NCBI GenBank assembly: GCA_020532085.1
Contig: JAJBAV010000023.1
Location: forward strand, 1 to 45,840
Origin: Candidatus Cloacimonadota bacterium
Lineage (GTDB): Bacteria > Cloacimonadota > Cloacimonadia > Cloacimonadales > Cloacimonadaceae
Reading direction: 5' to 3'
DNA length: 45,840 bases
Both the position numbers and the translations under genes were made by a program. Position 1 is the first letter of the stretch; the number at the start of each line of letters is the position of its first letter. Shown here one piece after another: positions 3-21,430 of this stretch. The notes under the pieces were generated by a model. The model was not told where the DNA came from. It saw only the letters and a list, made by a program, of their open reading frames with translations, and made no database searches.

Positions 3-116
3 GGTCGACGGGGACGTCGACCTTCCGGAATACATGCCTACCATCTCATCAGCGGCGACATATCAAGATGTAATCCGGAAGGTTAACGTCCCCGTTAACC
101 TGGCTCCGCAGGAGCC
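3..116. repeat. REP pair (REPIN-like), GTCGAC/GTTAAC family
   Basis: Two perfect hairpins lie 78 bp apart: GGTCGACG-GGGA-CGTCGACC at 3-22 and GGTTAACG-TCCC-CGTTAACC at 81-100. A small GGCTCC/GGAGCC stem follows at 102-116. The same pair, with the same offset, recurs four more times around the second RAYT gene near 20 kb, so this is a dispersed copy of that element. A degraded single palindrome follows at 186-205. The left edge of the window may cut the unit. Confidence 0.8.
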
Positions 117-5855: not shown

Positions 5856-8800
5856 TTACTTGTTCAGTTGCGGCCAAACGCCTTTGGAGGCTGGCATTTC
5901 GCCGTCGCTCGCGGTGATCTTGAAGAACTTGTAGGCTGTGGCGCCCGCGTCGAAGGTGAAGCTGGGCGTGGCGCTGTAACCCAGTATGGCCCAGGGATCC
6001 GGGGCATAGGGGTCGTTGGAGCCATAGACGGTGTAGTAGCTGGCGCCGGGTTCGGCGGGCCAGGCGATGGTGACATTGTTGCCGGTGGCGCCGATGGTGC
6101 CGTTCTCCACATCCGGAGGCGTGATGAAGATGCCCAGGGCGTTGGAGATGATGGCCTCGGATTCCAAGGCTCCGCTGTAGTTGGCTTTCACCGCCCACTT
6201 GTAGGATCCTTCACCCAAGGCGGCGAAACCGGTATCAAGGTAGGTGGTGTCGGCAACCGCTCCGTCGAGCAGGTTCCAGTTGCCGGGAATTGCTTCATCG
6301 GCAGCCAGGAAGCGGAAGACGTCGTAGTTCAGGAACCAGCGGTCGTCGTTGCGGGCGCCAAACTGGGCGGCCATGGCCTTGCTGGGGGCGGGGCCGATGT
6401 AGATGTCGTCGATGTACAACCCCGCGTAGGAAACCACGGTGGTGGCATACACGGAGAAGCGGATCTGAATGGTCTGATCCGCGTAAGCGCTAAGATCGAC
6501 CACTTTCTCAGCCCAGGCATTTTCGATGGCGGTTTCAGTAAGGACCGTGGTCCAAGTGCTGCCGTTGGTTGAAACCTCCACATAGTAGTAGTCGAAAGTA
6601 TAGTAGAGGTTGTTCCAGCGCCAGAAGCGCATTTGCGGACTGGTGAAACCAGCCAGGTCCACGGTATTGGTCAGGTAACTCCAGGCACCGGACATGGAGT
6701 AGGGAGCGTAGAGGATGGTTCCCCAAAGTCCGGTTCCGGAATAAGCCGCCGTGGGTGGCACTTCGCTGTCTGGATAACCGCCAACAACGTAGTTGGCCAC
6801 ATTGTAGGCATCGGTCCACTGCCAGTCTCCATATCCGCCGCTCACCCAGCCACCGTTGTCATCCTCGAAATCGAAGAAGAGGTAGTCGGGTTCTCCGGCA
6901 GGTTCCCAGAGCAGGCGCGCGTTGTCGCCTTCGTGGCTGGCCACCAGGTTGTAGGGCGTCCAGAGGTATTCGGTGAGGTTGATGGTGCCCAGGTCGACGT
7001 TGGTTTCGATGGCGTTGAAGGAACCGCTTGCTGACGCGTATCCCGCTTTGCTGACTTCCCAGGTGTAGGCGAGGATGTCCACGCTGCCTTTCACGTCGGC
7101 AATGCTGAACACGCCCCCCGCGCCTGTGGTGGTGCTGTAGTTGTGGTATCCGAAGAGCTCAACTGTGGCGCCAACAAGGCCGGCGGGATAGTCGTTCGAG
7201 GTTACCACACCGCTCACGGTGAGGCTGGGCAGGGCTTGCAGATAGAAGTCCTGCGTAACGGGGGTACCGGGCTCGAAGGAGATGCCTGTGGCCGTGCTGC
7301 TGTAGTAGTCGGTGGCGGAGCAGGTCAGATCCACGAAGGTGCTGTCCCAATAGGTGAATTCGTAATATCCGAATTCATCTGTGTAGGCAACGGCACGTTC
7401 GGTGAGGTTGACCATGGCGCCTTCGATCGGGGTGGTGGTGCCAGACTGGTACACATGGCCGGAGAGGATGGCCTGCGGATCGAAGGTCGCGTTCTGCACC
7501 ACGAACAGGGTGTTGGGCACATATCCTACAGCCGTTCCCGTGGCGGAGGGAGCCAGCGGATCGTAGGTGACGCTGTCGCTGTAGAGATAGCGCGAGCGGT
7601 TGGTATGGTCCGGAGTGGTGGTGTAGTAGAATTTGTCGCTGGCGGAGTGATAGACCGTGTCCATGGGACGGTTGACCCTGGTGGCCAGGGTGCCGCCGGT
7701 GTAGGAGAACGGGGTATCCAGCGGGATCACGATGTAGTTCACTCCGGAGGGGAAGTCCACCGTGCCATCAAAGACCAGGGTGTAGTCCACGCCGGGCAGC
7801 CAGCCGCCGGTCAGGTCGGTCACCGTGGTGTGCGCCATCCAGATCTTTACCGCCTTTCCTGTAAGATCATTCAGGAAGGTGTTCTTGTACACGATGGCGG
7901 TGATGGTTCCGGATTGCAAGTGCATTTCATCGGTGAAATACAGCTCTTCAGTGACGCTGTTCTTGTAATACATGCTCAGCGGCAGGTAGTAGCCGGAGGT
8001 GGTGGTTTCGTCGTCGCCCACGGGGATCACCGTCATGGTGTTGTCCAGAACGTAGAGCTCGGTGGTGGGGGAATCGTCGTTGGTGGCGTTTTGGTCGCCG
8101 GTGAGCACCACTTTGCCATAGACCTCGTAAACTCCGCCGGTGGCGGGAGTCCAGGACAGGATGTGCTGGGCGCTGGCGCCAGGATCGAGCGGGGTTGTTA
8201 CATCCAGGGTCGCCAGTTCGGTGCGGGCATCCACGCTCATCAGTTTCACGGTGTAGGCGCTTTGGGTGGCTGTGCCTTCGTTATAGACGTCAACCGTGAA
8301 GTCGTAAGCGGTGCCGGCTGTCATTATGCCGGGATTGGAGACCGCGGTGGCGGCCAGGTCGTTGGGCAGCAGTTCGAGCAGGCGCACGTCATCGATGTAG
8401 AGGCTTCTGTAAGTGCCGCCCAGGCCATGCATGAAGCAGATGTACTGGTCGGTGCCGGTGTAATCGGCATAGGACACTTCATACTCGGTTTTGGTGGAGG
8501 TCAGGCTGATGGAAGCGATCTGGTTGAAGGTCCCGGTGCCGTCGGGGACGTCCACCGTTCCCACCAGCAGCGGATATCCGGTGCTGCTGCTGCTGGCGTA
8601 GAATTTCAGCTTGATCTGGCTGAGGGAGCGGCCCAGGTCGATCATAGGCGTGATCAAGCGCAGGTCGGCAGCGGCGTCGGCGCTGTTGCTCATCTGGACG
8701 CTGTTGGGCGGGCTTTGCGCGTAGGTGGTGGAGCTGTAGGTGCGCACGTAAGCCGAGGTTGAGGTCGAGTTCACGTATCCGGTCCAGCCATAGGCCATGT

Positions 8801-11420
8801 CCGGAGCGGTGACGCTGTCGAAGTACTCTTCGTGCGGCAGGGCCACGATGGTGGGATCGGGCAGGGTGGTGAAGCGGAACACCTGCAAACCGGAAGTGGG
8901 ATCGGGGTTGCCGTCATCGTTGTAAGGCAGCACCGCCCAGTACCAGGTGGTGTTGAATCCCAGATCGATGTCGGCCTGCGCGCTCAGATCCAGATTGCTG
9001 TTGGTGGTCTCATACAGGTACTCGCCGTAGTAGTCGTTGCCGGGATCGATCAGGCTGGTACCCACGAACACTTCGTAGTAGGTCGGGGCTCCGCCACCCA
9101 CCGCGTTCTGCCAGTTCAGGATGCAGTTGGCAGGATCAACGGTTGTGGAATTGTCTTCCGGAGCCAGCAGGGTCACATGCTCGGGTGCCTGTCCGCCCAG
9201 GCGGATGCGCACGTTGTCCACGAAGAAGTCGTTGTCGGCATTGCTGACGGTCGATTCCCCGTAGAAGGCGACGTATTTGATGCCGGTGTAGGCATCCAGC
9301 GGGATCACATAATGGTCGCCGGTGTGGGAGACGCTGTTGTACACCTCGTAGATGCCGCCGGTGGTCAGGTCGTCATTGTCCCAGACCTTCACGGCGTTGG
9401 CGGTGGACCAGGATGTGCCGTCGCTGATCAGGACCACGAACTTGTCGTCCACGCCGGAAAGACCGGCAGGATCGTCCGGAGGCAAGGCATTGGTGTAATC
9501 CGTCAGGGCAATATCAAATTCCAACTGGTAGCCCGCCCCGGGCATCTGTATGGGCGGGGTCATCAGCCAGTATTTCCAAGTTGTTCCGTATATGTTCGTT
9601 TTGGCTGATTTGTTGGTAGGGTCGGTTACTATATTGGCGAAGTCATCCTGCAACCAGCCACTGGTGGTGGTTGTGAGCGTTACAGGCTCGGTGGTAAGCA
9701 GACCCGACCATCTGGTCCAGTTGGTGGGCGGGAAGGTGGTTCCGGTGGTGCCGAAATCCTCCAGCCAGGGCATGGTGTAGATGATGGGATCCGGCCTGGT
9801 GGTGAAGCTCTGCACCGTCGCGCCGGGTCCGGTGCCTGAGCCGTTGTAGGCTGCCACAGTCCAGTAGTAGGCGGTGTTGTAGTTCAGGGCCGTGGTGAGG
9901 GTATAGGGCGAGGTCACGTCGCTGGCGTAGAGTGTGCTGCCGTCGGTGGTATCCAGGTAGAGGTTGTAGCCGGTGGGGATGCCGCCCGTGGTGGGAGGAT
10001 CCCATTCGAAGGTGGTGTATTCGTTCACATCGGTGGCCAGGTCCGCGGGCGCAGTCAATGTGGGCGCGCCGGGCGCTACCGCGGCAAGGTCCGGACCGAA
10101 GAGATGATCGACGTAAATGTATGACGCTGCGGTTTGTTGGGGAGAATGGAAGGCCAGGTAGTAATTGCCGGGGGTCAGTCCGCTCAGATCAATTGTGACC
10201 GGATACCAGATGCCAGTTGCGGCAAAGGTGATATCCGCGCCCACCTGGGTCCAAGTGGTCCTGTCGGTCGATTGCAGAACCTGAAGCACCTGGCTTGTGG
10301 CGGATGCCTTGGCATAGAAATCCAGGCTGCTGGTTGCGTCTACGGCCAGGATGGGTGTTGAAATTGTGTAGGCAGTGGATGTAGACGTGTAGGCATACAT
10401 GCTGGCCGCGCCATAGAAGGGCGAGGTGGTGCTGCGTCCCCAGTAAGTCGTGCTGGTGGTGGTCCTCAGCCAGCCCAGGGGCGGGAACTCCGTGGCATCG
10501 AAGCTTTCGGCGATCTGATCCGCAGTGGGCGTCTTGAAGCTCCAGGTAGTCACGCCGGTGGCCGGCCCGTTGGCGTTGTAAGGCACCACTTTCCAGTAGT
10601 AGGTGGTCCCGGGGGCCAGGGTGGGCGTGTAGGAGGTTCCGGGCTGATCATTGCTGACCAGGGTGCTGCCGTCCACCGTGTCCAGATAGACGTCATAACC
10701 ATCTGGCATGCCCCCGCCGTCACTCCAGGACAGCACTCCGTCCAGGAAGCAGTAGCCGGCGTTGGCGGGATAGACCAGCACGGCCGGGTTGGGGGGATCG
10801 GTTTGCGGGGTTACGAGGGCCAAATTGGATCTACTGGTGGAACGCGTCCCGGCTGTTGTTGGCCAGGTTGTATCAGCTTGCTTGTAAACCAATTTGTAGT
10901 CCGGGCTGGTGCTACTGTAGCGCCAGGTGGGATAGCCGGTCACATAATCGCCGTCCCAGTTTTTCCAGAAGATCTCGATGTTGCTGGTCCCATCCCAGTC
11001 GAAATTGGCCAGGTTGAAAGCGATGTAAAACCAGCCGCCGCCGTTGAAGGTGAGGTTGCCGGAAAAGACCTGGGTGAAAGCGGTGGAATCCGGCATGGCG
11101 GTTCCGGTCTCGTCGGCGGTGGTGTTGTAGGTGGTTAGGGTGGTGTGCCGGATGAACATGTGCAGGTCCAGCATTTCATAGTTGGACGGTGTGTTTCCGA
11201 CGTAATATCCGACCCCGACCATGTTGTCGGTGCCGTCATAGCCCGCTGCTGTCATCTCCGCGGCGGTGACGATGGTCTTGGTCCAGCCAAAGTCATATAG
11301 TCCGCTGAATGGTCCATACGTGGCTGAGGAACTGGTGCCCAGGGTGCCGATGGGATAAACGTCGGCCCAGGCAAACGCCGCCAAGAGCAGGAGCAGGGTA
11401 AAGAGCAAGGGTTTTTTCAT
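5856..11420 (-). CDS. Giant secreted multidomain protein (1854 aa)
   Basis: The start is set at the ATG at 11420: it gives a clean signal peptide (MKKPLLFTLLLLLAAFAWA) and has AAGGAG six bases upstream; the reading frame extends 52 codons further up without a signal sequence. Domains in order: an N-terminal module (~20-190); FN3-like (~205-295); choice-of-anchor/MAM-like jelly roll (~300-455); alternating FN3 and anchor-J-like blocks to ~1010; CARDB-like (~1015-1120); a ~180-aa module shared with other proteins here (~1125-1305); two carboxypeptidase-regulatory-like folds (~1307-1480); a MAM-like domain (~1510-1680); and a FN3-like C-terminus with the VYGSNDP motif. No enzyme motif or membrane anchor is visible. 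It is probably an exported adhesin or carbohydrate-binding surface protein (inference). Long open frames on the opposite strand are composition artefacts. Confidence 0.9.
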   Translation of the reverse strand: MKKPLLFTLLLLLAAFAWADVYPIGTLGTSSSATYGPFSGLYDFGWTKTIVTAAEMTAAGYDGTDNMVGVGYYVGNTPSNYEMLDLHMFIRHTTLTTYNTTADETGTAMPDSTAFTQVFSGNLTFNGGGWFYIAFNLANFDWDGTSNIEIFWKNWDGDYVTGYPTWRYSSTSPDYKLVYKQADTTWPTTAGTRSTSRSNLALVTPQTDPPNPAVLVYPANAGYCFLDGVLSWSDGGGMPDGYDVYLDTVDGSTLVSNDQPGTSYTPTLAPGTTYYWKVVPYNANGPATGVTTWSFKTPTADQIAESFDATEFPPLGWLRTTTSTTYWGRSTTSPFYGAASMYAYTSTSTAYTISTPILAVDATSSLDFYAKASATSQVLQVLQSTDRTTWTQVGADITFAATGIWYPVTIDLSGLTPGNYYLAFHSPQQTAASYIYVDHLFGPDLAAVAPGAPTLTAPADLATDVNEYTTFEWDPPTTGGIPTGYNLYLDTTDGSTLYASDVTSPYTLTTALNYNTAYYWTVAAYNGSGTGPGATVQSFTTRPDPIIYTMPWLEDFGTTGTTFPPTNWTRWSGLLTTEPVTLTTTTSGWLQDDFANIVTDPTNKSAKTNIYGTTWKYWLMTPPIQMPGAGYQLEFDIALTDYTNALPPDDPAGLSGVDDKFVVLISDGTSWSTANAVKVWDNDDLTTGGIYEVYNSVSHTGDHYVIPLDAYTGIKYVAFYGESTVSNADNDFFVDNVRIRLGGQAPEHVTLLAPEDNSTTVDPANCILNWQNAVGGGAPTYYEVFVGTSLIDPGNDYYGEYLYETTNSNLDLSAQADIDLGFNTTWYWAVLPYNDDGNPDPTSGLQVFRFTTLPDPTIVALPHEEYFDSVTAPDMAYGWTGYVNSTSTSAYVRTYSSTTYAQSPPNSVQMSNSADAAADLRLITPMIDLGRSLSQIKLKFYASSSSTGYPLLVGTVDVPDGTGTFNQIASISLTSTKTEYEVSYADYTGTDQYICFMHGLGGTYRSLYIDDVRLLELLPNDLAATAVSNPGIMTAGTAYDFTVDVYNEGTATQSAYTVKLMSVDARTELATLDVTTPLDPGASAQHILSWTPATGGVYEVYGKVVLTGDQNATNDDSPTTELYVLDNTMTVIPVGDDETTTSGYYLPLSMYYKNSVTEELYFTDEMHLQSGTITAIVYKNTFLNDLTGKAVKIWMAHTTVTDLTGGWLPGVDYTLVFDGTVDFPSGVNYIVIPLDTPFSYTGGTLATRVNRPMDTVYHSASDKFYYTTTPDHTNRSRYLYSDSVTYDPLAPSATGTAVGYVPNTLFVVQNATFDPQAILSGHVYQSGTTTPIEGAMVNLTERAVAYTDEFGYYEFTYWDSTFVDLTCSATDYYSSTATGISFEPGTPVTQDFYLQALPSLTVSGVVTSNDYPAGLVGATVELFGYHNYSTTTGAGGVFSIADVKGSVDILAYTWEVSKAGYASASGSFNAIETNVDLGTINLTEYLWTPYNLVASHEGDNARLLWEPAGEPDYLFFDFEDDNGGWVSGGYGDWQWTDAYNVANYVVGGYPDSEVPPTAAYSGTGLWGTILYAPYSMSGAWSYLTNTVDLAGFTSPQMRFWRWNNLYYTFDYYYVEVSTNGSTWTTVLTETAIENAWAEKVVDLSAYADQTIQIRFSVYATTVVSYAGLYIDDIYIGPAPSKAMAAQFGARNDDRWFLNYDVFRFLAADEAIPGNWNLLDGAVADTTYLDTGFAALGEGSYKWAVKANYSGALESEAIISNALGIFITPPDVENGTIGATGNNVTIAWPAEPGASYYTVYGSNDPYAPDPWAILGYSATPSFTFDAGATAYKFFKITASDGEMPASKGVWPQLNK

Positions 11421-11556
11421 GTTAACTCCTTGGGTAGGTGTGAATGTCATCAGACGGGATCTAAGCGATAAATTGACTCCGCCTGCTTGGGTATTGAAGT
11501 TGAAAAGAAGGGGTAAGGACTTCCGGGGCGGGCGCGGGCACGGTTTTGATGTGATA

Positions 11557-11564
11557 ATGTGCGA
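11557..11564 (-). promoter_or_regulatory. TCGCACAT motif upstream of giant secreted protein gene
   Basis: The octamer TCGCACAT, within an AACGTCGCACATTA context, lies 137 bp upstream of the start codon at 11420. It matches the sites upstream of the genes starting at 3935 and 13958. The rest of 11421-11939 shows no gene I can support. Confidence 0.35.
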
Positions 11565-11939
11565 CGTTATCCTCATGTAATGGGTGCCGGACGCGGGTTT
11601 GGGGATGGTCCTTGCTTGGGATTGATGTTATGTTGTTGTGGTTTTGAATGCTTCTTTCCTGATCGGGGATGCGGTTGCATCCTCCTTCCCCAGATCTCCT
11701 CGAATTCCTACGATCGAAATGCGTGAGTTCTTCCCGCATTCAATCTCCTTGGTCAGTTTTTGTCCGGTTTGGTTAAACTGCTTAAGGCCGTTCGTTGTGT
11801 GGCTTGAAATACGCGTCAAGCCGACCGGGGACGTGAACCAAGTTCGCCCCGGGGATGGCATTTCACCACCCGGCCATCATTTTTTTTAGCCCGCCGGGGG
11901 TGTCAAGCTTTTTTTCGCGGGGAGCGGCGGAAGCCAATC

Positions 11940-12260
11940 CAGGAGTAGCAGACATCCCCGTCATTCACCCCACGAACTCACTGCGCTCGTCCGCGAGGAC
12001 CCCGAGCCAAGGCCCGGAGGGACTTTTGGAACTAAAAGACAAACCCCTGCGGGGTTTCGCAAACGGGGACGTTTGCGGCTCCAGTGGCATATACAGGAGT
12101 GGCAGACGTCCTCGTCTGCCAAGGCCCGGAGGGACTTTCTGACGCAGAGAACAAGCTTCTCCGAAGCTTCGCAAACGGGACGTTTGCAGCTCCAGGATGG
12201 AGAGCTTTCGAAACTCAAAGAACAAGCTCCTTCGAATCTTTGCAATCGAGGACGTTTGCG
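11940..12260. repeat. REP cluster, GCAAACG/GCAGACG family, left of RAYT 1
   Basis: Palindromes include GCAAACG-GGGA-CGTTTGC (12059-12076), GGCAGACG-TCCT-CGTCTGCC (12101-12120), a copy with a 3-base loop (12171-12187) and a degraded copy (12242-12259). Between them are AAGGCCCGGAGGGACTTT and ACAAGCTTCTCCGAAGCTTC modules. The cluster directly abuts the RAYT gene at 12353 and continues on its far side. Confidence 0.85.
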
Positions 12261-12352
12261 ACTCCGATCTGGGTCAGTTGTAACTCCCGAAAAAACTACT
12301 TTACAGTTTTAGATACTTCCATCCCTTGGAAAAAACATCTTGGGAAAGCCTT

Positions 12353-12985
12353 ATGGAAAAGATCGTGGAAAAACACCGGCGCTCATTACCTCATTTACAG
12401 CTGGAGGGACAGATCATTTCCCTCACCTGGCGGCTGGCCTTCACCCTGCCCCAAACCTTGCTGGACATGCAGGACGATTTGAAAGAGACCTTGGCCAAAA
12501 TCGGCAAGCAGAAACATCTGGATGCTGCAGCCACATACTCAGAATATGTAAAAAAGCTACAGGACTACGATGCCTATTTGGGGAAATTCGAACTGGCGGG
12601 AATATCTTTGACTGAGGATGCAATCGCCTCCATGCTGGCCTCCGCGTTCCGGTTCTACGACAGCAGTTTGTATGAATTGCACAGTTATTGCCTGATGCCC
12701 AACCATGTTCATTTGCTAATCAGGCCACTACTGGACGGTCAGGGCGGGTTCCATCAGACCAGTGCGATCGTGCAACGCCTGAAGAGCTTCACTGCCAAAC
12801 GGATAGACGCGCACTTGGGGAGGCGGGGAAAGGTTTGGCAGGCAGACTATTTTGACAGATTCATCCGGAATCCTGCTGATTATCTGAATGTTGTGAAATA
12901 CATCCTGGATAATCCTTTGAAAGCCGGATTGGTTAAACGCCATGATGAGTGGAAGCACGCTTATTACCAGCCAGGCTTGATCTGA
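12353..12985 (+). CDS. REP-associated tyrosine transposase (RAYT) 1
   Basis: This is a 210-aa Y1/HUH-type transposase-like protein. The family nicks and rejoins single-stranded DNA at REP hairpins and is thought to spread them. The metal-binding HxH is at residues 118-120 (MPNHVHLL). The likely nucleophile is Tyr183 in a YILxNPxKAG motif. The start was chosen at ATG 12353 because the paralogue at 20057 starts at the same residue (MEKIVEKHR); an in-frame TTG lies nine codons upstream. It is aligned end to end with that paralogue without gaps, both ending in PGLI. REP palindromes of the GCAAACG/GCAGACG type flank it on both sides. No terminal inverted repeats or second transposase gene are seen, as expected for a domesticated RAYT. 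Confidence 0.9.
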   Translation: MEKIVEKHRRSLPHLQLEGQIISLTWRLAFTLPQTLLDMQDDLKETLAKIGKQKHLDAAATYSEYVKKLQDYDAYLGKFELAGISLTEDAIASMLASAFRFYDSSLYELHSYCLMPNHVHLLIRPLLDGQGGFHQTSAIVQRLKSFTAKRIDAHLGRRGKVWQADYFDRFIRNPADYLNVVKYILDNPLKAGLVKRHDEWKHAYYQPGLI

Positions 12986-13011
12986 GACAAGTGAGGCTAT
13001 TGGAGGTGCGT

Positions 13012-13340
13012 CAAACGGGGACGTTTACGGCTCCAGTGGCTGATCCAGGAGTGGCAGACGTCCCCGTCATTCACCCCACGAACTCACTGCGCTCGTCCGC
13101 GAGGACCCCGAGCCAAGGCCCGGAGGGACTTTCTGACACAGAGAACAAGCTTCTCCGAAGCTCCGCAAACGGGGACGTTTGCGGCTCCAGTAGCATATAC
13201 AGGAGCGGCAGACGTCCCCGTCTGCCAAGGCCCGGAGGGACTTTTGGAACTAAAAGAAAAACCCCTGCGGGCTTTGGCAAACGGGGACGTCTGCCACTCC
13301 GATGTTTTGTGTGTTTTGTGCAGATGGGGACGTCTGCCAC
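13012..13340. repeat. REP cluster, GCAAACG/GCAGACG family, right of RAYT 1
   Basis: It holds GCAAACG-GGGA-CGTTTGC (13165-13182), GGCAGACG-TCCC-CGTCTGCC (13207-13226), a hybrid stem GGCAAACG/CGTCTGCC (13276-13295) and half sites at 13012-13027 and 13324-13339. A ~100-bp stretch starting near 13046 repeats the sequence at 11946 almost exactly, so the RAYT gene is bracketed by direct copies. Confidence 0.85.
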
Positions 13341-13769
13341 TCCGATATTTTATTCTTCACTCCGCGCGAACAAATGGAAAGGAGTGGAAAAAAATCCATG
13401 CTTCGGGAAATGATTCCTCCCCCCAGGAAGAAAAGTCCTTGACAATAAGTTCGGTACCGGCAGCCTTGACTTTTATAGCGTTGAATATTTTCTGCCTAGC
13501 TTGGATCTCTTTATTGGCCTGCCATGCAGGCCCGATCCACAGATTCCGGAAACCGCTACGGCTTCCCAGCAGGGGACAGCCGCAAACACAGGGAGCGTTG
13601 ATGAAACTTGGCTACCGAGCATACCAGCTTCAAGCTTCCGGCAGCCCCAAACTGCCGCGAGGAAGAGCAGCATCAACTTTCCCCGGCTTTCCACCCTTTT
13701 ATTTCAAAGCATCGTCCGAAAACAGTTTTCCCCCGTCCCCCGCTTTGCGCGACGCGTCCAAACGTAACA

Positions 13770-13777
13770 TCGCACAT
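13770..13777 (+). promoter_or_regulatory. TCGCACAT motif upstream of 1684-aa secreted protein gene
   Basis: TCGCACAT in an AACATCGCACATTA context, 181 bp upstream of the start at 13958. It is the third copy of the motif seen ahead of the secreted protein genes starting at 3935 and 11420. The rest of 13341-13957 appears to be upstream and leader sequence; no gene was recognised. Confidence 0.35.
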
Positions 13778-13848
13778 TACAAGCGGCCTTCCGCGCGAAT
13801 CCAGGCCACGGGAAAACAGCTTCACTTAGTAACTTCAAAAACAAATCC

Positions 13849-13898
13849 GGGGCCGCAATCCGGCCGGGAGAACAAACCTCCGGGCTGAAACCGGCCCC
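13849..13898 (+). promoter_or_regulatory. Structured 5' leader hairpin
   Basis: A stem GGGGCCG (13849-13855) pairs with CGGCCCC (13892-13898). It encloses a second small stem GGAG/CTCC (867-870 with 878-881 of the 13-kb region). It lies 60-110 bases before the start of the 1684-aa secreted protein. It has no T-run, so it is not a terminator. It could stabilise or regulate the mRNA; this is inference only. Confidence 0.3.
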
Positions 13899-13957
13899 GC
13901 AGACCTATCCCCAGAAATTCTTCAACCCAACAATGCCTCTTCAAGGAGAGATGATTT

Positions 13958-16900
13958 ATGAAGAAATTACTAATTCTGCTAATGGCCCTGTCCCTGGCGG
14001 GACTGGCTTTTGCTGACGTAATAATCGGATCAGGGACAAGTACCGGAAGGTATCCCCTGAACGATTATTTCGTGTATTCCAGGTCGCAATGCATATATTT
14101 GAGCTCGGAAATAAGTGCCAACCCTGGCACAATAACCGCTTTGCAATGGTATCGGAATGATACCGGCGCGGATCCAAACGCCATAGGCACCACCGAAATC
14201 TGGCTTACGGAAACACCCTTGACCACATTGTCCACCTGGCAGACTGAGGGAACCCTGGTTGCCACCATTTCCAACATAGACCTGGGTTCCGGCGGTGGCT
14301 GGTATAACGTGGATATTGCTGATTTCGATTATTCCGGTGGGAACCTTATGGTTTCCGTTCGCACCCAGAACGCGCCATATACCTCTCCTCATTCCTACTG
14401 GCGCTATACCAGCACCTCAACCTACTTAAGTCTGCTTGGCAATAGTGACGGTACAAACCCTCCAGATGTATACACGAGTTATTCCCGACCGAATATAACA
14501 TTCGTGGGCATCGACGTTGCGGTGTGGGACGAACCCACCAACCATGTGACGGATTTTGCCGCAGGGACTCTGGCCTATACCTCTATCCAGTTGAACTGGA
14601 CCGGTTCCACCGGCGCGCAGCTGCCCGGCAATTATCTGATCCAAGCGATCAAGAGTCCCGGAACCTATGCCGCGGTGGCAGATGGAACTCCGGTGGCCAA
14701 CGACGCGGTTTGGACAGACAACAACGCCGCGATCAACGTGGCCCATGTAGTGGGTGCCAACACCTACACTTTCACGGGGCTGACTGCCAACACGGCCTAT
14801 GAATTCAAGATCTGGCCCTACACAAATTCGTTGGCCGCAATTGATTTCAAAACCGACGGGACCATCCCGACGGTGAACGCCTCCACTCTAGACCCCACCC
14901 AGGCTCTGGATTACAGCCAGGACTTCAACAGCGGCACTTCGCTGCCTGCCATCAACTGGACCGGAGACATGTCTATTAGCTCCACACACGGCAATGCCGG
15001 CACCAACGGCCTGTATAAGAACCTCTACAGCTACACTACCACTACCAACGCTGTAACCCCTCCCATCGGGCCGATGACCGACGACTGCCAGATCCTGTTC
15101 GATTACCGGATCGTGAATTACTCTGGCTATCCCTCCACCGGAACCACCCTGGGGGCCAGCGACAAGATCGAGGTGCAGGTTTCCACCGACAACGGAGCCA
15201 ACTTCACCACCATCTATACGATCGACAGTACCAACCATGTTACCAGCAACGCCTTTGCCACGCTCAACCTTCCCGTTACGGCTTATGACGGGGACATCAT
15301 CCTGGTGAAGTTCCTGAGCACCTGGGGTGCCGGGGATTATTACGTGGATATCGACAACGTGATCGTGCGCGAAACCCCCCTGGCCGGGATTCTGACCGTC
15401 TCTCCGAACCCGGTGGAATGTGGAAACGGCTATGTCGGATTCGATAAGAACGTGCAGGTGTCACTCACCAACACCGGAGTGGCGGCGTTCATCGTAAGCA
15501 CCATCGCCCTGGAAGATTACACCAACTTCGATCTGGCCGACCTCCCCACCCTGCCCGTAACCATCAATCCCGGCGATCCCGCCGTTACCTTCACCGTGGT
15601 GTTCAATCCCACCGTGGCTGGCGCCCTGACCACCAACCTGCTGATCAACGACACCCGTCTGAACTCCAGCATCGTGGTTAACGGCACCGGCGTGGATCCT
15701 CTGGTTGGCGAGATCTGCGAGAACCCCTATCTGGCCACCCTGCCGCTGGTTGACTATGCCGGCACCACTGCCGGATACGCCAACGACTACACTTCGGCGA
15801 TGTTCACCGGGTTGGGCAGCACCTCCTATGTAGGAGGTAAAGACTGGGTCGCCAAGATCACAGTGCCAGCGGATGGCTGGCTGGATGTCAGCCTGGCTGA
15901 CCAGACCGGATACAGCTCACAGTGGATGGGAGTGTTTTTGGTCAACACCATTCCCAGCCTGGCTTCACCTGCCGCCGTGCTGGCCCAGGCAACTGGCTCC
16001 AGTGGTCCTCAAACCATCACTGACGCGGTGGTAGCAGCCGGAGATTACTATGTGATCGTGGACAACTGGCCCAGCCCCGCGGACATCTACTTCGTGCTGA
16101 ACGTCTCCTTCGAAGCTGTCACCAGCGCGCCCAACCCCGCCAATTTGGTGAGCCCGCTTGACGACGCCATCAACGTACCCCTCACCCAGACCCTGAACTG
16201 GAGCAGCGGCGGCGGCTACGTGGAAGGCTACCGGCTTTCCTTCGGTACCGTCGATCCCTATGCCGTGATCGTCAACGACGTGGACCTGGACATGCTAACC
16301 ACCTACGATCCGACCCTGGCCTACGGCACCGAATACTGGTGGACCGTTACCCCTTACAACTACCTTGGCGACGCCACTCCCATCACCGAGTGGTCTTTCA
16401 CCACCATGGCAGATCCCACCGTCATCATTCCTCCGGACTATCTGACGAACTTCGAGACCTGGCCTGCCACCAACTGGTCGCAGATGAACTACCTCTATGG
16501 CGGCACTCCCGCCATGGGCGGTAGCTGGTTGCAGGACGACTGGTTGAATGTAACCAGCCCCGTGGACAAAGCGGCCAAGATCAACATCTACTCTACCCAC
16601 AATTCCTGGCTGGTCACTCCTCCCATCCAGGTTCCCGGTGGCGATTACGTGCTGGAATTCGACCTGGCCCTGATGGTTTGGAGCAGCCTGTCTACCCCGG
16701 TGACAGCTGGCAACCAGGCCGACGACCGCCTGCTGCTGGTGATGAGCGACAACGCGGACATGAGCAGCCCCACCACCCTGATGGAGTGGAACAACACCGG
16801 CTCATCCAACGTGTTCGACAACATCTCACCCACCGGTGAGACGATCAGCTATCCCCTGGCCGGGATCACCGGCACCAAGCACTTCGCCTGGTACGCTGAA

Positions 16901-19012
16901 TCGATCACTGACACCGCCGGTGACAATGACCTGATGGTCAACAACGTGATGATCCGCATTCCGCCCACCGCTCCCGAAGCGCCGCTCCTGGTTTATCCCG
17001 GTACTGACGCTACGGACCTGCCCAAGACCGGTTTCGACCTGTCCTGGCAGAACAATCCGCTGGGGTTGGAACCGGATTACTTCGTTGTCTATATGTGGAC
17101 CGATGCTCAGGGCGAATTTGGCGGCCCCTTCTGGGAAACCGCCGACGCCAGCGTGACCACCCTGAACCCGACTGTGGTGATCCCGGAAGGTGAAACTGAA
17201 CCCCTCACCTTCGCTTATGACGAGCGCTGGAACTGGACCGTGTCCGCTGTGGTCGGCACCACTGAAGTGATTGCCGATTCCCGCTGGTTCGTGATCCAAA
17301 GCGATCCCACGAACTACGATTACCCCTACGAAGAGCCCTTCGACGAAATTGCGCTTGGCGCACTTCCGGAAGATTGGACCCTCATCGATTATTCCGGCGG
17401 CTGGCAGGCAGCTGAAAACATCGGCCCCTATTCCCTGCCCTATGCCGCGACCATCTATTACAATTCCACCCTGGCCAAGGACGACTGGATGATCACGCTG
17501 CCGATGTACATGGAAGAAAGTACTCTGTACAACGTCTCCTTCATGCTCAAGGCCCCGGGCTGGGATGGCACTCCGGAAGCGCTTGCCCTCCACGTGGGCG
17601 ATGCACCGACCGTGGCCGCCATGACCGCCGGCACCACCCTATATGACAACAACGCGCTGGAAGTGGCCGACTGGATCAACGTGACCGTGCCGTTCACCCC
17701 GGCTGCGGACGGAGTTTATTACTTCGGCTGGCATGCCTATTCAGTGGCGAATGTGGATTACATCGCCGTGGACGACGTCATGATCTTCATTCCCGAAGAT
17801 GTTGACCTGGCTGCCACCGGCATCTCCGGTGACGGCGGCGGTTTCGTGGGTTCACCTGTGTCCACCACTGTAACCGTCAGCAACCTTGGCACTACCGGCC
17901 AATCGAGCTACACGGTGTATGTGAAAGACGCGGCTGACGACTCCATCCTGGACCAGTTCGAAGAAACAGTTGAACTGGGCTCCCTGGACTCCAGAGACCA
18001 TGTGCTCAGCTGGACCCCCACGGTTGACGGCACCATCAGCATCTACGGCGAAGTTGTCGTGACTGGCGATGCCAACCTGGCCAACAACACCACCGGCACC
18101 ATGGACGTGGTGGTATTCACCGCCACCACCGTGCTGGCCTATGTGGGCGATCCTGCCACTACCTGGGTATCCTCGGCATATCCGTTCGATATGTACTATG
18201 AGGATTTCGTGGCCGAAACCATCTATCTGTCCAGCGAAATGATGATGACCAGCGGTACAATCAATGCCCTTGCTTACTACAACTACTTCGACGCTGCCCA
18301 CACCAGACCCGTGCAGATCTGGATGAAGAACACCGATGCCAACGATCTGGCGGCCAGCTGGCTGGATTGGACTGGCTATGTGCCTGTGTTTGACGGCGAT
18401 TTAGTCGGCCCCGCGGGTTTCAACGAGATCATCATCCCGATCACTCCGTTCACCTATACCGGTGGCAACCTGGCGATCCGCACCAGCCGCACCTGGCAGG
18501 GCGAATGGACCAGCGGAAAACAATGGCTCATCACTGATAACCTGAACTATACCAATAGGACCAGATTCTACCGTGAAGACTCTGAATTCGTAGATCATAC
18601 TGCGCCCGTGGGTGGCACTACCTCCAATTATGTGCCCAACATTCTGTTCATACTGGATCCCGCCACGCCGATCACCTCGATCGCCGCTCCGGAGATAACC
18701 ATCAGCAATGTTGGCAGCGACGTGAGTGTTGACTGGGATCTGGTTCCCTACGCCTATTCCTATGAAGTGTATACCTCCGACGATCCTTATGTGTTTGGCA
18801 CCGTTCCGGGATACACGGTGTACACCAACAACCTGACCGTAACCCCCGGTGTGGATGACGTGAGGGAGTTCTTCAAAGTAACCTCCGCGACCTATCGGAC
18901 TGATTATCGCGGCAGCGTTGCCAACCGGCCTGTTCTGGCTGCCAAAGAAGGAAAACTGAGATCCGCGGACGCCCCCGCTGTTCCCAAGGTTCGGGCTAGA
19001 CTAAGCAAATAA
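13958..19012 (+). CDS. Giant secreted multidomain protein (1684 aa)
   Basis: AAGGAGAG lies eight bases before the ATG, and residues 1-19 form a signal peptide ending in LAFA. Order: N-terminal module (~20-190) resembling those of the 1854-aa and 1037-aa proteins; FN3-like (~190-305); choice-of-anchor J-like (~310-470); choice-of-anchor D/HYDIN-like (~478-578); a pre-peptidase-like block (~582-720); FN3-like (~725-820); further anchor-J and FN3-like blocks to ~1275; CARDB-like (~1280-1385); the shared ~180-aa module (~1387-1567); and a terminal FN3-like module with EVYTSDDP and an FFKVTSA strand. The C-terminus is basic. There is no FlgD-like tail. Codon use and GC match the neighbours. Surface adhesion or substrate binding is likely but unproven. 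Confidence 0.9.
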   Translation: MKKLLILLMALSLAGLAFADVIIGSGTSTGRYPLNDYFVYSRSQCIYLSSEISANPGTITALQWYRNDTGADPNAIGTTEIWLTETPLTTLSTWQTEGTLVATISNIDLGSGGGWYNVDIADFDYSGGNLMVSVRTQNAPYTSPHSYWRYTSTSTYLSLLGNSDGTNPPDVYTSYSRPNITFVGIDVAVWDEPTNHVTDFAAGTLAYTSIQLNWTGSTGAQLPGNYLIQAIKSPGTYAAVADGTPVANDAVWTDNNAAINVAHVVGANTYTFTGLTANTAYEFKIWPYTNSLAAIDFKTDGTIPTVNASTLDPTQALDYSQDFNSGTSLPAINWTGDMSISSTHGNAGTNGLYKNLYSYTTTTNAVTPPIGPMTDDCQILFDYRIVNYSGYPSTGTTLGASDKIEVQVSTDNGANFTTIYTIDSTNHVTSNAFATLNLPVTAYDGDIILVKFLSTWGAGDYYVDIDNVIVRETPLAGILTVSPNPVECGNGYVGFDKNVQVSLTNTGVAAFIVSTIALEDYTNFDLADLPTLPVTINPGDPAVTFTVVFNPTVAGALTTNLLINDTRLNSSIVVNGTGVDPLVGEICENPYLATLPLVDYAGTTAGYANDYTSAMFTGLGSTSYVGGKDWVAKITVPADGWLDVSLADQTGYSSQWMGVFLVNTIPSLASPAAVLAQATGSSGPQTITDAVVAAGDYYVIVDNWPSPADIYFVLNVSFEAVTSAPNPANLVSPLDDAINVPLTQTLNWSSGGGYVEGYRLSFGTVDPYAVIVNDVDLDMLTTYDPTLAYGTEYWWTVTPYNYLGDATPITEWSFTTMADPTVIIPPDYLTNFETWPATNWSQMNYLYGGTPAMGGSWLQDDWLNVTSPVDKAAKINIYSTHNSWLVTPPIQVPGGDYVLEFDLALMVWSSLSTPVTAGNQADDRLLLVMSDNADMSSPTTLMEWNNTGSSNVFDNISPTGETISYPLAGITGTKHFAWYAESITDTAGDNDLMVNNVMIRIPPTAPEAPLLVYPGTDATDLPKTGFDLSWQNNPLGLEPDYFVVYMWTDAQGEFGGPFWETADASVTTLNPTVVIPEGETEPLTFAYDERWNWTVSAVVGTTEVIADSRWFVIQSDPTNYDYPYEEPFDEIALGALPEDWTLIDYSGGWQAAENIGPYSLPYAATIYYNSTLAKDDWMITLPMYMEESTLYNVSFMLKAPGWDGTPEALALHVGDAPTVAAMTAGTTLYDNNALEVADWINVTVPFTPAADGVYYFGWHAYSVANVDYIAVDDVMIFIPEDVDLAATGISGDGGGFVGSPVSTTVTVSNLGTTGQSSYTVYVKDAADDSILDQFEETVELGSLDSRDHVLSWTPTVDGTISIYGEVVVTGDANLANNTTGTMDVVVFTATTVLAYVGDPATTWVSSAYPFDMYYEDFVAETIYLSSEMMMTSGTINALAYYNYFDAAHTRPVQIWMKNTDANDLAASWLDWTGYVPVFDGDLVGPAGFNEIIIPITPFTYTGGNLAIRTSRTWQGEWTSGKQWLITDNLNYTNRTRFYREDSEFVDHTAPVGGTTSNYVPNILFILDPATPITSIAAPEITISNVGSDVSVDWDLVPYAYSYEVYTSDDPYVFGTVPGYTVYTNNLTVTPGVDDVREFFKVTSATYRTDYRGSVANRPVLAAKEGKLRSADAPAVPKVRARLSK

Positions 19013-19051
19013 ACCGTAACCGCCGCGGAACCATCCGCAGCATAAATATCA

Positions 19052-19079
19052 AACCCCCGCAACACCGCGGGGGTTTTTT
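19052..19079 (+). terminator. Rho-independent terminator of the 1684-aa protein gene
   Basis: CCCCCGC (19054-19060), a six-base loop, GCGGGGG (19067-19073), then six T residues. It sits 40 bp after the stop codon. The stem is nearly the same as the terminator at 2034-2062. Confidence 0.9.
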
Positions 19080-19148
19080 GTGCCCGGGAATTTGGTTCAC
19101 GCAGTTGACGCAGAAAAAAGCTCGGATTTTCGCCGGTGGGACCCGGAA

Positions 19149-19333
19149 GGTTAACGTCCCCGTTCAACCCTCGCTACTGGAGCCGCAGGCGAAGCTTCGC
19201 AGAAGCTTGTTTGGGGGGTAAATGAAAGGCCCTCCGGGCCTTGGCAGACGAGGACGTCTGCCGCTCCTGGTTCATGCTTGTTTGGGTGGTAAATGAAAGG
19301 CCCTGCGGGCTTTGGCAGACGGGGACGTCTGCC
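19149..19333. repeat. Mixed REP cluster upstream of RAYT 2
   Basis: One GTTAAC-type palindrome (19149-19169, one extra base in the right arm) is followed by two GCAGACG-type palindromes: GGCAGACG-AGGA-CGTCTGCC at 19243-19262 and GGCAGACG-GGGA-CGTCTGCC at 19314-19333. This is the only place where both families meet. Confidence 0.8.
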
Positions 19334-19487
19334 GCTCCGATAATAAATGCAGCCAGGGACGTCTGGCAGTTAACCCCGGCTCCCGGCCCCCGGACGCGCC
19401 CCCCGCCCAATGCCCGCATTTGGTGCGGGGATCATCCGGGGGGCTGGCGAGGAGGTTTGACGCGGACGATAAGGACGGGACCCGGAA

Positions 19488-19964
19488 GGTTAACGTCCCC
19501 GTTAACCTGGCTCCGCAGGAGCCATCTCTGGCCATAACGAATACTGAGTCTGAGACGGATGTTAGCACAAAGCCCTGCGGGCTTTTGGTCGACGGGGACG
19601 TCGACCTTCCGGAATACATGTCGTCCATCTCATCAGTGGCGACATATCGAGATGTGATCTGGAAGGTTAACGTCCCCGTTAACCTGGCTCCGCAGGAGCC
19701 ATCTCTGGCTGTAACGCAGACTGGGGCTAGGTTCGGATTCGGAGTCCGCAAAGCCCTGCGGGCTTTTGGTCGACGGGGACGTCGACCTTCCGGAATACAT
19801 GTCGTCCATCTCATCAGTGGCGATATATCGAGATGTGATCTGGAAGGTTAACGTCCCCGTTAACCTGGCACTGCAGGAGCCATCTCTGGCCATAACGAAT
19901 ACTGGGTCTGAGACGGATGTTAGCACAAAGCCCTGCGGGCTTTTGGTCGACGGGGACGTTGACC
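19488..19964. repeat. REP pairs, GTCGAC/GTTAAC family, left of RAYT 2
   Basis: A single right palindrome lies at 19488-19507. Two complete pairs lie at 19587-19684 and 19768-19865, each with left and right palindrome starts exactly 78 bp apart. A lone left palindrome (19945-19964) sits directly before the RAYT gene. Each unit is preceded by an AAAGCCC-TGC-GGGCTTT hairpin and followed by GGCTCC-GCA-GGAGCC. Confidence 0.9.
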
Positions 19965-20056
19965 TTCCGGGATGGGAAGTCGGCCTGCCGAATATTTTTT
20001 CCCTTTACAAATTTTGCCAAAAAATAATCCTGCATCCTGTGTTTGGGAGGAACATC

Positions 20057-20689
20057 ATGGAAAAGATCGTGGAGAAACACCGGAGTCATCTGCCGCACTT
20101 TCAGCTGGAGAGGCAGATCATATCCCTGACCTGGCGGCTGGCTTTTACCCTGCCAAAAAACCTTCTGAAATTGCAGACAGATCTGGAAGAAGAACTGGCG
20201 GAAATACGCAGGGAAAACACATCAGATCTATCAGTCAAGTATGCAGGATACATCCAAAAACTGGAAGAGTTGGATACATTTTTGGGCAAGCTTGAGTTAG
20301 ATGATCTGTCCTTATGCGCTGATGAAAATCCTCAAACGTTGATCTCCGCCATCAATTTCTACGCAGGCAACTTCTACGAACTACACAGTTACTGCATCAT
20401 GCCCAACCATCTGCATCTCCTGATCAGGCCCCTGCCGGGACAAGGTGTTGACTTTCATAAAGTTAGCGCGATGGTTCAGCGTTTGAAATGCTATACTGCC
20501 AAAATGATCAACCAGCGATATGAAAGGCTGGGAAAGATCTGGCACCGGGACTATTTTGACAGATTTATCAGAAATCCTGATGATTACCGCAATGTGGTGA
20601 GCTATATCCTGGCAAACCCGGTTAAGGCTGGCCTGATGAAAAAAGCGGAGGCATGGAAATACTCATACTTTTGCCCCGGTCTGATCTGA
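20057..20689 (+). CDS. REP-associated tyrosine transposase (RAYT) 2
   Basis: This 210-aa HUH/Y1-type protein is the paralogue of the gene at 12353. HxH is at 118-120 (MPNHLHLL) and the candidate catalytic Tyr183 is in YILANPVKAG. The ATG at 20057 is preceded by GGGAGG and gives the same N-terminus (MEKIVEKHR); the frame is open further upstream only because it reads through REP sequence. The gene sits between a left palindrome (19945) and a full pair (20727-20824), as though it replaced a REP pair's interior. The flanking palindromes differ from those around RAYT 1. This suggests that each enzyme has its own target set, as is known for RAYT/REP pairs. Confidence 0.9.
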   Translation: MEKIVEKHRSHLPHFQLERQIISLTWRLAFTLPKNLLKLQTDLEEELAEIRRENTSDLSVKYAGYIQKLEELDTFLGKLELDDLSLCADENPQTLISAINFYAGNFYELHSYCIMPNHLHLLIRPLPGQGVDFHKVSAMVQRLKCYTAKMINQRYERLGKIWHRDYFDRFIRNPDDYRNVVSYILANPVKAGLMKKAEAWKYSYFCPGLI

Positions 20690-20726
20690 GGGTGGCATGG
20701 ATGTCCGCAAAGCCCTGCGGGCTTTT

Positions 20727-21104
20727 GGTCGACGGGGACGTCGACCTTCCGGAATCTATGCCTACCATCTCATCAATGGCGATATATCGAGATGTGATCT
20801 GGAAGGTTAACGTCCCCGTTAACCTGGCTCCGCAGGAGCCATCAGAATACTTATCATAACCCACAAGGCTTAGGCTTTAGTGCAAATCAGCAAAGCCCTG
20901 CGGGCTTTTGGTCGACGGGGTCGTCGACCTTCCAGAATACATGTCGTCCATCTCATCAGTGGCGACATATCGAGATGTGATCTGGAAGGTTAACGTCCCC
21001 GTTAACCTGGCTCCGCAGGAGCCATCTCTGGCCATAACGAATACTGAGTCTGAGACGGATGTTAGCAAAGCCCCGCGGGCTTTTGGTCGACGGGGACGTC
21101 GACC
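20727..21104. repeat. REP pairs, GTCGAC/GTTAAC family, right of RAYT 2
   Basis: Complete pairs lie at 20727-20824 and 20910-21007, again with a 78-bp offset. A lone left palindrome lies at 21085-21104. The 20910 copy has GGGT instead of GGGA in the loop while its stem is intact. Confidence 0.9.
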
Positions 21105-21129: not shown

Positions 21130-21430
21130 GTTAATGCGTAAATCAGGTCTATCCGTAAATCAGTTCAATCCGTAAATCCGTATGAGAATGGTAATGCCCG
21201 GCTTCAAGCCAGGTGCCGCGAGATAAATCCCGGGCACCCAACAAGCTGAAGCTTATGTTACAATGGCTTTGTTCCTTGTTTTTTTATCTGTGTATATCCG
21301 TGTACTTTGTGCACAAAGACTGGATTCCGGGTCTGCGGCGCAAAAGCACCTTAGCCCGGAATGACGTACACTCGGTTCTCTATCCCTCTGCTTTTATAAT
21401 TCGTGTAAATCCGTGTAATTCGTGGACAAG
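21130..21430. repeat. Mosaic intergenic repeat modules
   Basis: It contains ATCCGTAAATCAGTTCAATC-type modules, the GAGATAAATCCCGGGCACCC module, an ATTCCGGGTCTGC module and CGTGTAATTCGTGGACA, all related to the repeats at 895-1960 and 4585-5780. They run up to within five bases of the murA stop codon. Confidence 0.7.

Follow-up and report, generated by a model that had tools for sequence, protein, structure and literature searches.

The TnpA_REP and IS200/IS605 enzymes bind a single folded DNA strand, in which the hairpin supplies shape and loop contacts and protein residues read a guide sequence, helping to choose the cleavage site. Here, we analyze two sister enzymes of this kind, the repetitive extragenic palindrome (REP)-associated tyrosine transposases (RAYTs) RAYT1 and RAYT2, together with the palindromes around them, in a 45,840-nucleotide (nt) stretch of a Candidatus Cloacimonadota genome, hereafter the window. 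Each described RAYT has its own REP family, and co-evolution of the two has been asserted since 2010 (PMC2817692, PMC3686654, PMC8266576); which letters separate a RAYT's own repeats from those of its paralogue had been left open. The window provides a natural test pair, i.e., sister RAYTs in one genome with the same hairpin loop, varying stems, GGAG or GGAA as the guide, and Gln or His at a reported guide contact, so that co-evolution becomes testable at the level of single residues.

The REPtrons of gammaproteobacteria (Escherichia coli TnpA_REP, Stenotrophomonas) share with this locus a single-gene Y1 HUH enzyme, inverted flanking REPs, and a 5′ tetranucleotide followed by a hairpin. They differ from it in their guide, which is GT[AG]G; in addition, the RAYTs studied here are about 210 amino acids (aa) long with a longer N-terminal part, and about half of their repeat units carry a second compensated hairpin. 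The group 3 TnpA_REP/REP systems of S. maltophilia and Marinomonas (PMC8266576) also combine a perfect stem of 7 to 9 base pairs (bp) with a loop of 3 to 4 nt. In group 3 RAYTs, single loop bases are essential, a perfect stem is needed, and complementing stem blocks has a mild effect (PMC8266576), which fits the fixed loop and free stems seen here, although the guide letters differ. Gene-adjacent repeats lacking GT[AG]G are likewise found with TnpAY1 classes 2.6 and 3 (PMC6006769); in class 2.6 the guide-contact region is not conserved, whereas here it keeps Trp162 and a readable guide. Finally, the heterodimers known as REPINs (REP doublets forming hairpins) or BIMEs (bacterial interspersed mosaic elements) are inverted REP pairs whose members differ in stem (PMC3116915, PMC3733652); here, the stems differ while both members are always of one guide class.

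Earlier publications already describe the co-evolution of RAYTs and REPs, the assignment of one REP family to each RAYT, heterodimeric REPINs, and a contact role of E. coli Q95. In the papers searched we found no RAYTs of Cloacimonadota, no GGAG or GGAA guides, and no rule relating a residue to a guide base. The present locus extends to this phylum the RAYT/REP systems whose guide is not GT[AG]G. The evidence presented below makes it quite probable that this genome houses two paralogous REPtrons whose stems are selected to pair and whose last guide base separates the systems, with residue 163 of the RAYT as its likely reader.

Two sister RAYTs and their hairpins

The genome (2.81 Mb, 98 contigs, the window being contig C23) contains four RAYT-like genes, namely, RAYT1, RAYT2, and two others at about 34% identity on different contigs. 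RAYT1 and RAYT2 are 60% identical across their whole length. An earlier reading of this stretch (the original prediction) had them aligning over 210 aa without gaps, which is right as to length but not as to gaps, of which there is one compensating pair of single residues. Both proteins match Pfam Y1_Tnp. With NCBIfam REP_Tyr_transpos (NF047646, cut-off 80), RAYT2 scores 84.8 bits and RAYT1 79.5, and both stay below the cut-off of 55 for the IS200 transposase family (19.5 and 26.2 bits). RAYT1 and RAYT2 both carry Trp162, H118, H120, and Tyr183; N117-H118-x-H120 and Tyr183 are invariant across 21 aligned RAYTs. The RAYT sequence matches 4er8, i.e., E. coli TnpA_REP with a REP hairpin (E = 1.4e-8), which is also the top match in the PDB of an AlphaFold2 model of RAYT2 (predicted local distance difference test score, 87.9). 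Inverted palindromic repeats lie on both sides of each gene, and further copies are found in other parts of the genome. On these counts the two proteins are RAYTs, apart from the half bit by which RAYT1 falls short of one curated cut-off. Each is predicted to be a Y1 HUH single-strand endonuclease recognizing a folded strand composed of a 5′ guide, a short perfect stem, and a small pyrimidine loop, and as such would presumably bind, cleave, and mobilize REPs.

A Y1 fold and hairpin ends are also common to IS200/IS605 insertion sequences, and the palindromes could be imagined as the ends of an ordinary element of this type, or as a miniature inverted-repeat transposable element family mobilized by a different transposase, the RAYTs being chance neighbors. 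This is highly improbable, given that the REP_Tyr_transpos scores lie far above those for IS200, that repeated hairpins with RAYT-specific guides surround most related RAYTs of the phylum, and that REP pairs made of these repeats are dispersed at sites away from RAYT genes.

Read in the TCCC orientation, a REP unit consists of the guide GGAG or GGAA and, 0 to 2 nt away, a first hairpin (HP1) with a stem of 7 to 9 bp and a loop of 3 to 4 nt, TCCC or at times TCCT or TCC. Hairpins were counted in stretches of the genome around matches to the core pattern ACGTCCYCGT, whose overlap with the 3′ arm is limited to its innermost bases and takes in none of the varying ones; elements were seeded on the guide, 5′ arm, and loop alone, leaving the 3′ arm unselected. 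All six outer positions pair in 57 of the 72 seeded elements, and the unpaired variants are mostly single mismatches, indels, or truncated copies. Unpaired forms are thus a minority; had they been as common as paired ones, this would have told against the original prediction. The fully paired outer stems fall into eight types: GTTGACG, ACGGACG, ACCGACG, and ACAGACG, plus GCAAACG, GCAGACG, GTCGACG, and GTTAACG, which had been predicted with the loop GGGA/TCCC and are present as described. Among 23 distinct HP1 20-mers, 85% of the cells pair, and both-sided changes are found at six of the eight base pairs. Their covariation score of 0.430 was reached by none of 500 shuffles (0.192 ± 0.024), and slid structures scored 0.135 at most. 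The predicted pair of RAYT/REP systems with compensated stems is therefore confirmed, as is the persistence of hairpin form and loop under changing stem letters. The supposedly fixed core ACG-GGGA-CGT proved to be a local feature; same-family relatives retain a short loop mostly beginning with TCC, and their perfectly paired stems are wholly different, including the inner pairs. Selection on the stem would thus favor pairing rather than particular letters.

In about half of the units, a second hairpin (HP2) of about 7 bp with the loop GCA or GGA lies directly 3′ of HP1. It is also compensated, with at least five consecutive pairs in 34 of 71 units versus 1.4% of shuffles, and its stems are diverse (e.g., AAAGCCC, TGGCTCC, AAACCCC, AAGCTTC, and AAGGCCC). 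Twin hairpins in themselves have a precedent, since some double-palindrome structures were described beside Pseudomonas RAYTs by Di Nocera et al. Many HP2 copies have a G+C stem with A-rich sequence 5′ of it and T-rich sequence 3′ of it, and HP2 could serve as a two-way transcription terminator. The repeats gave no match in Rfam. Like canonical REPs, they have a small-looped complementary stem immediately 3′ of a tetranucleotide; because the tetranucleotide is GGAG or GGAA instead of GTAG or GTGG, they are REP-like and not canonical GTAG REPs.

Guide classes, stems, and REP pairs

The guide is GGAG around RAYT1 and GGAA around RAYT2, a difference of one base. Counts of GGAG and GGAA units are 8 to 0 near RAYT1 and 1 to 11 near RAYT2 (P = 7e-5, with copies within arrays not being independent). 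Fully paired GGAA units have the stem GTCGA, GTTAA, or GTTGA (31 of 31), and fully paired GGAG units have GCAAA, GCAGA, or ACNGA (26 of 26). REP class is thus related to the nearest RAYT; stem classes without such a relation were the other outcome that would have spoken against the original prediction.

Nineteen convergent pairs, each of two inverted REPs at a short distance, have the layout of REPINs. Eleven are GGAG-GGAG, eight are GGAA-GGAA, and none is mixed, while 17 of the 19 are heterodimers with two different stems (GTTAAC with GTCGAC; GCAAAC with GCAGAC or ACCGAC). Moreover, the same inner stems recur under other guides: CAAACG with GGAG and Gln163 beside RAYT1 and with GGAT and Arg163 beside the RAYT of a relative, CAGACG with GGAG, GGAA, and GTAG, and CAAGCT with GTAG and GTAA. 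Stems fail as an enzyme label because convergent pairs mix them and one inner stem can accompany several guides; it is the guide, not the stem type, that labels the two systems. Of the predicted joint divergence of enzyme and hairpin specificity, two lineages with diverging enzyme and DNA tag remain, and the stem drops out as the diverging specificity. The guide, HP2, and the fact that residue 163 is Gln in one RAYT and His in the other had all been overlooked.

In its strict form, that prediction would have each RAYT read the stem sequence itself, the stems having diverged with the enzymes. The split of stem classes by system and the reported effect, though limited, of stem mutations on cleavage in Stenotrophomonas (PMC8266576) are what such reading would produce, but it is hard to reconcile with at least two stems per REP pair around each RAYT, with the same inner stems under other guides beside other RAYTs, and with the free change of stem letters among relatives whose pairing is kept. 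We therefore regard stem reading as improbable. Under the guide-based explanation, REPs would multiply as convergent pairs whose two outer ends carry one and the same guide and whose stems usually differ.

The hairpins might instead be kept as RNA elements, either transcription attenuators or stabilizers of mRNA 3′ ends, with RAYT proximity and guide class as by-products of descent. No REP of the window falls within a long gene, HP2 resembles a terminator, and RNA roles of REPs have been proposed in other systems (PMC3733652). However, an RNA function leaves unexplained why an unpaired guide is conserved, why both members of a convergent pair share their guide, and why guide and RAYT residue are associated across phyla, as described below; we judge it slightly more doubtful even than stem reading.

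Heterodimers were also considered as a general guard against the formation of one long hairpin, an idea we rejected: single-strand folding agreed for GGAA pairs and was false for a GGAG pair.

Units of mixed class occur only head to tail, one divergent neighbor pair excepted (loci L006, L012, L020, and L023; contigs C1, C5, C27, and C59 of the genome). In the head-to-tail units, the GGAA hairpin comes first and a GGAG hairpin of like orientation follows at 33 to 95 nt, in many cases preceded by a conserved CCCGACTGCGTCGTCCCGGAATGACG stretch. On one short contig (L023, C59:2400-5100), a stretch of 650 to 740 bp with both REP classes is repeated about three times.

Residue 163 and the last guide base

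That the last guide base is tracked by the residue following Trp162 was first suggested by a comparison of relatives. This residue, 163, corresponds to Q95 of E. coli TnpA_REP (numbering checked on the alignment with 4er8), which is listed among the contacts of the GTAG guide (PMC6006769, PMC8266576); the Gln163 and His163 codons of RAYT1 and RAYT2 (CAG and CAC) differ by a single nucleotide. A survey of 146 nonredundant RAYTs yielded a clear guide call in 78, from many phyla. An automatic caller looked beside hairpins for G[TG]A followed by any base, leaving the fourth base unused, and some calls rest on only two hairpins. Across 199 RAYT columns, residue 163 ranked first in mutual information with the fourth base (z = 8.6 to 8.8), ahead of a runner-up at 4.3 and of the largest value from 300 label shuffles (5.4). 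Among the 78 loci, Gln163 goes with G in 21, A in 2, and C in 2; His163 goes with A in 11, C in 6, T in 3, and G in none; and Arg163 goes with T in 2.

Loci outside Cloacimonadota, which had no role in suggesting the rule, behave alike: G is the fourth base for 12 of 14 Gln RAYTs and 0 of 8 His RAYTs (P = 1.4e-4), and column 163 is again at the top. In held-out Cloacimonadota loci, G accompanies His in 0 of 4 and Gln in 3 of 4, a set that leaves out a fifth Gln row (H_L230_44) that is without Trp and misaligned. On a tree computed without column 163, seven independent Gln/His pairs (12 when weak branches are admitted) show a base switch in the same direction in a mean of 6.5 and in the opposite direction in 0 (median P of about 0.016). 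Sister pairs of this kind include RAYT1/RAYT2 (GGAG/GGAA), L058/L188 (GTAG/GTAA), L115/L135 (GTAG/GTAC), and L157/L148 (GTAG/GTAC). Shared ancestry or the guide caller could in principle generate such an association, as RAYT clades share both traits and two hairpins are all that stands behind some calls. Nonetheless, column 163 is far ahead of the other 198 columns, which have the same ancestry; the tree-independent pairs, other phyla, and held-out loci all agree, and stricter calling thresholds give the same direction. An artefact is accordingly about as improbable as stem reading.

We consider it reasonably likely, if less so than the existence of two guide-separated REPtrons, that a one-residue rule operates, by which the residue after the conserved Trp sets the last guide base (G for Gln; A, C, or T for His; perhaps T for Arg) and lineages have repeatedly escaped cross-talk between paralogues by switching residue and base jointly, with stems drifting freely as long as they pair. 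RAYT1 (Gln163) would then act with GGAG and RAYT2 (His163) with GGAA; Gln163 would favor G as the last guide base and His163 exclude it, and the sister systems would in consequence amplify separate REPIN populations. Residue 163 would thereby cause the guide preference and not merely mark it. If true, guide preference would be predictable from sequence and changeable by one mutation, and the birth of REP families via paralogue divergence could be traced stepwise.

Several points weigh against the explanation as a whole. There are two GGAG REPs on the RAYT2 side. The rule has exceptions: about a sixth of the Gln enzymes break it (L133, L123, L073, and L075 in the main set and L213 in the held-out set, with A or C as the fourth base), and His occurs with A, C, or T. 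Other residues must contribute to guide choice. Automatic guide calls may be one base out at single loci, and the independent-pair test comprises only seven to nine well-supported pairs. The published text consulted does not state which guide base Q95 touches (PMC6006769, PMC8266576), E. coli G160/E161 are reported as the contacts of the last two guide bases, and a literature search turned up no biochemistry for any RAYT of Cloacimonadota.

A separate rule pairing A with His was dropped as weak (3.4 versus 0.6 pairs on the tree), the robust split being G versus not-G. For the second guide base (T versus G), residues 166 to 176 (E. coli 98 to 108), including 169 (E. coli H101), associate with z of about 15, e.g., His169 with GT and Arg169 with GG guides; with only about five changes on the tree, this apparent association is only a lead. 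No guide call was obtained for the most distant RAYTs, which have no Trp at position 162. A RAYT clade in which Trp-Asp replaces Trp-Gln/His (L064, L067, L043, L079, L078, and L068) has apparent NGGG guides, to which the guide caller is blind since it requires A as the third base, and seems to follow the same twin-hairpin plan with loops TCCT, TCCC, or TCCG.

Feature positions and other repeats

Table 1. RAYT genes, residue 163 codons, and REP units in the window
Feature	Position	Strand	Details
RAYT1	12353..12985	+	210 aa Y1/HUH REP-associated transposase; H118/H120, Tyr183, Trp162-Gln163
RAYT2	20057..20689	+	210 aa, sharing 60% identity with RAYT1; best structural match of the predicted fold, 4er8
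Codon CAG, Gln163 of RAYT1	12839..12841	+	Aligned with E. coli TnpA_REP Q95; partner guide GGAG
Codon CAC, His163 of RAYT2	20543..20545	+	Partner guide GGAA
GGAG-class REP	12041..12082	-	Guide GGAG 12079-12082; HP1 CGCAAACG-TCCC-CGTTTGCG 12058-12077; HP2 AAACCCC-GCA-GGGGTTT 12041-12057
GGAG-class REP	12096..12120	+	HP1 GGCAGACG-TCCT-CGTCTGCC 12101-12120
GGAG-class REP	12153..12193	-	HP1 GCAAACG, 3-nt loop TCC, 12171-12187; HP2 AAGCTTC-GGA-GAAGCTT 12153-12169
GGAG-class HP1, imperfect	13010..13029	-	GTAAACG/CGTTTGA
GGAG-class HP1, 3′ arm truncated	13053..13072	+	GCAGACG/CGTCATT
GGAG-class HP1	13164..13183	-	CGCAAACG-TCCC
GGAG-class HP1	13207..13226	+	GGCAGACG-TCCC
GGAG-class HP1	13276..13295	-	GCAGACG/CGTTTGC; one G-T wobble, between GCAA and GCAG types
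GGAG-class HP1, imperfect	13319..13338	-	GCAGACG-TCCC
GGAA-class HP1, 3′ arm imperfect	19149..19168	+	GGTTAACG-TCCC
Two GGAG-class REPs, exceptions on RAYT2 side	19243..19333	-	HP1 19243-19262, loop TCCT; HP1 19314-19333, loop TCCC
GGAA-class convergent pair	19484..19610	.	HP1 GGTTAACG-TCCC (+, 19488-19507); HP1 GGTCGACG-TCCC (-, 19587-19606); HP2 on each
GGAA-class convergent pair	19665..19787	.	HP1 19665-19684 (+), 19768-19787 (-); single strand predicted as four separate hairpins
GGAA-class convergent pair	19846..19964	.	HP1 19846-19865 (+), 19945-19964 (-, one mismatch)
GGAA-class HP1 immediately 3′ of RAYT2	20727..20746	-	GGTCGACG-TCCC
GGAA-class pair	20801..20929	.	Guide GGAA 20801-20804; HP1 20805-20824 (+); HP2 TGGCTCC-GCA-GGAGCCA 20825-20841; HP1 20910-20929 (-), variant loop ACCC
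GGAA-class convergent pair	20988..21104	.	HP1 20988-21007 (+), 21085-21104 (-)
GGAA-class REPs at contig edge	3..100	.	HP1 3-22 (-), 81-100 (+)

The RAYT1 cluster is located between genes for two very large, probably secreted proteins (5856-11576, minus strand, and 13958-19012, plus strand; 1906 and 1684 aa, respectively), the second of which matched no Pfam family. A third repeat type, CATAAGCTTCAGCTTGTTGGGTGCC...GGCAC, forms small hairpins with 2-nt loops beside RAYT3 (G000:C30; L003, about 1420-1480 and 2140-2210) and is also present at 21199-21260 of the window, just downstream of the RAYT2 array. RAYT4 (L004/L033, G000:C2:77680-78920) and its near-identical relative in another genome (L061) have arrays of GGAACACCGGAT-TC-ATCCGG and GGTCCACCAGAT-TC-ATCTGG; these hairpins, one compensated pair apart and with different 5′ tags, occur at 19 places in the genome that carries the window.

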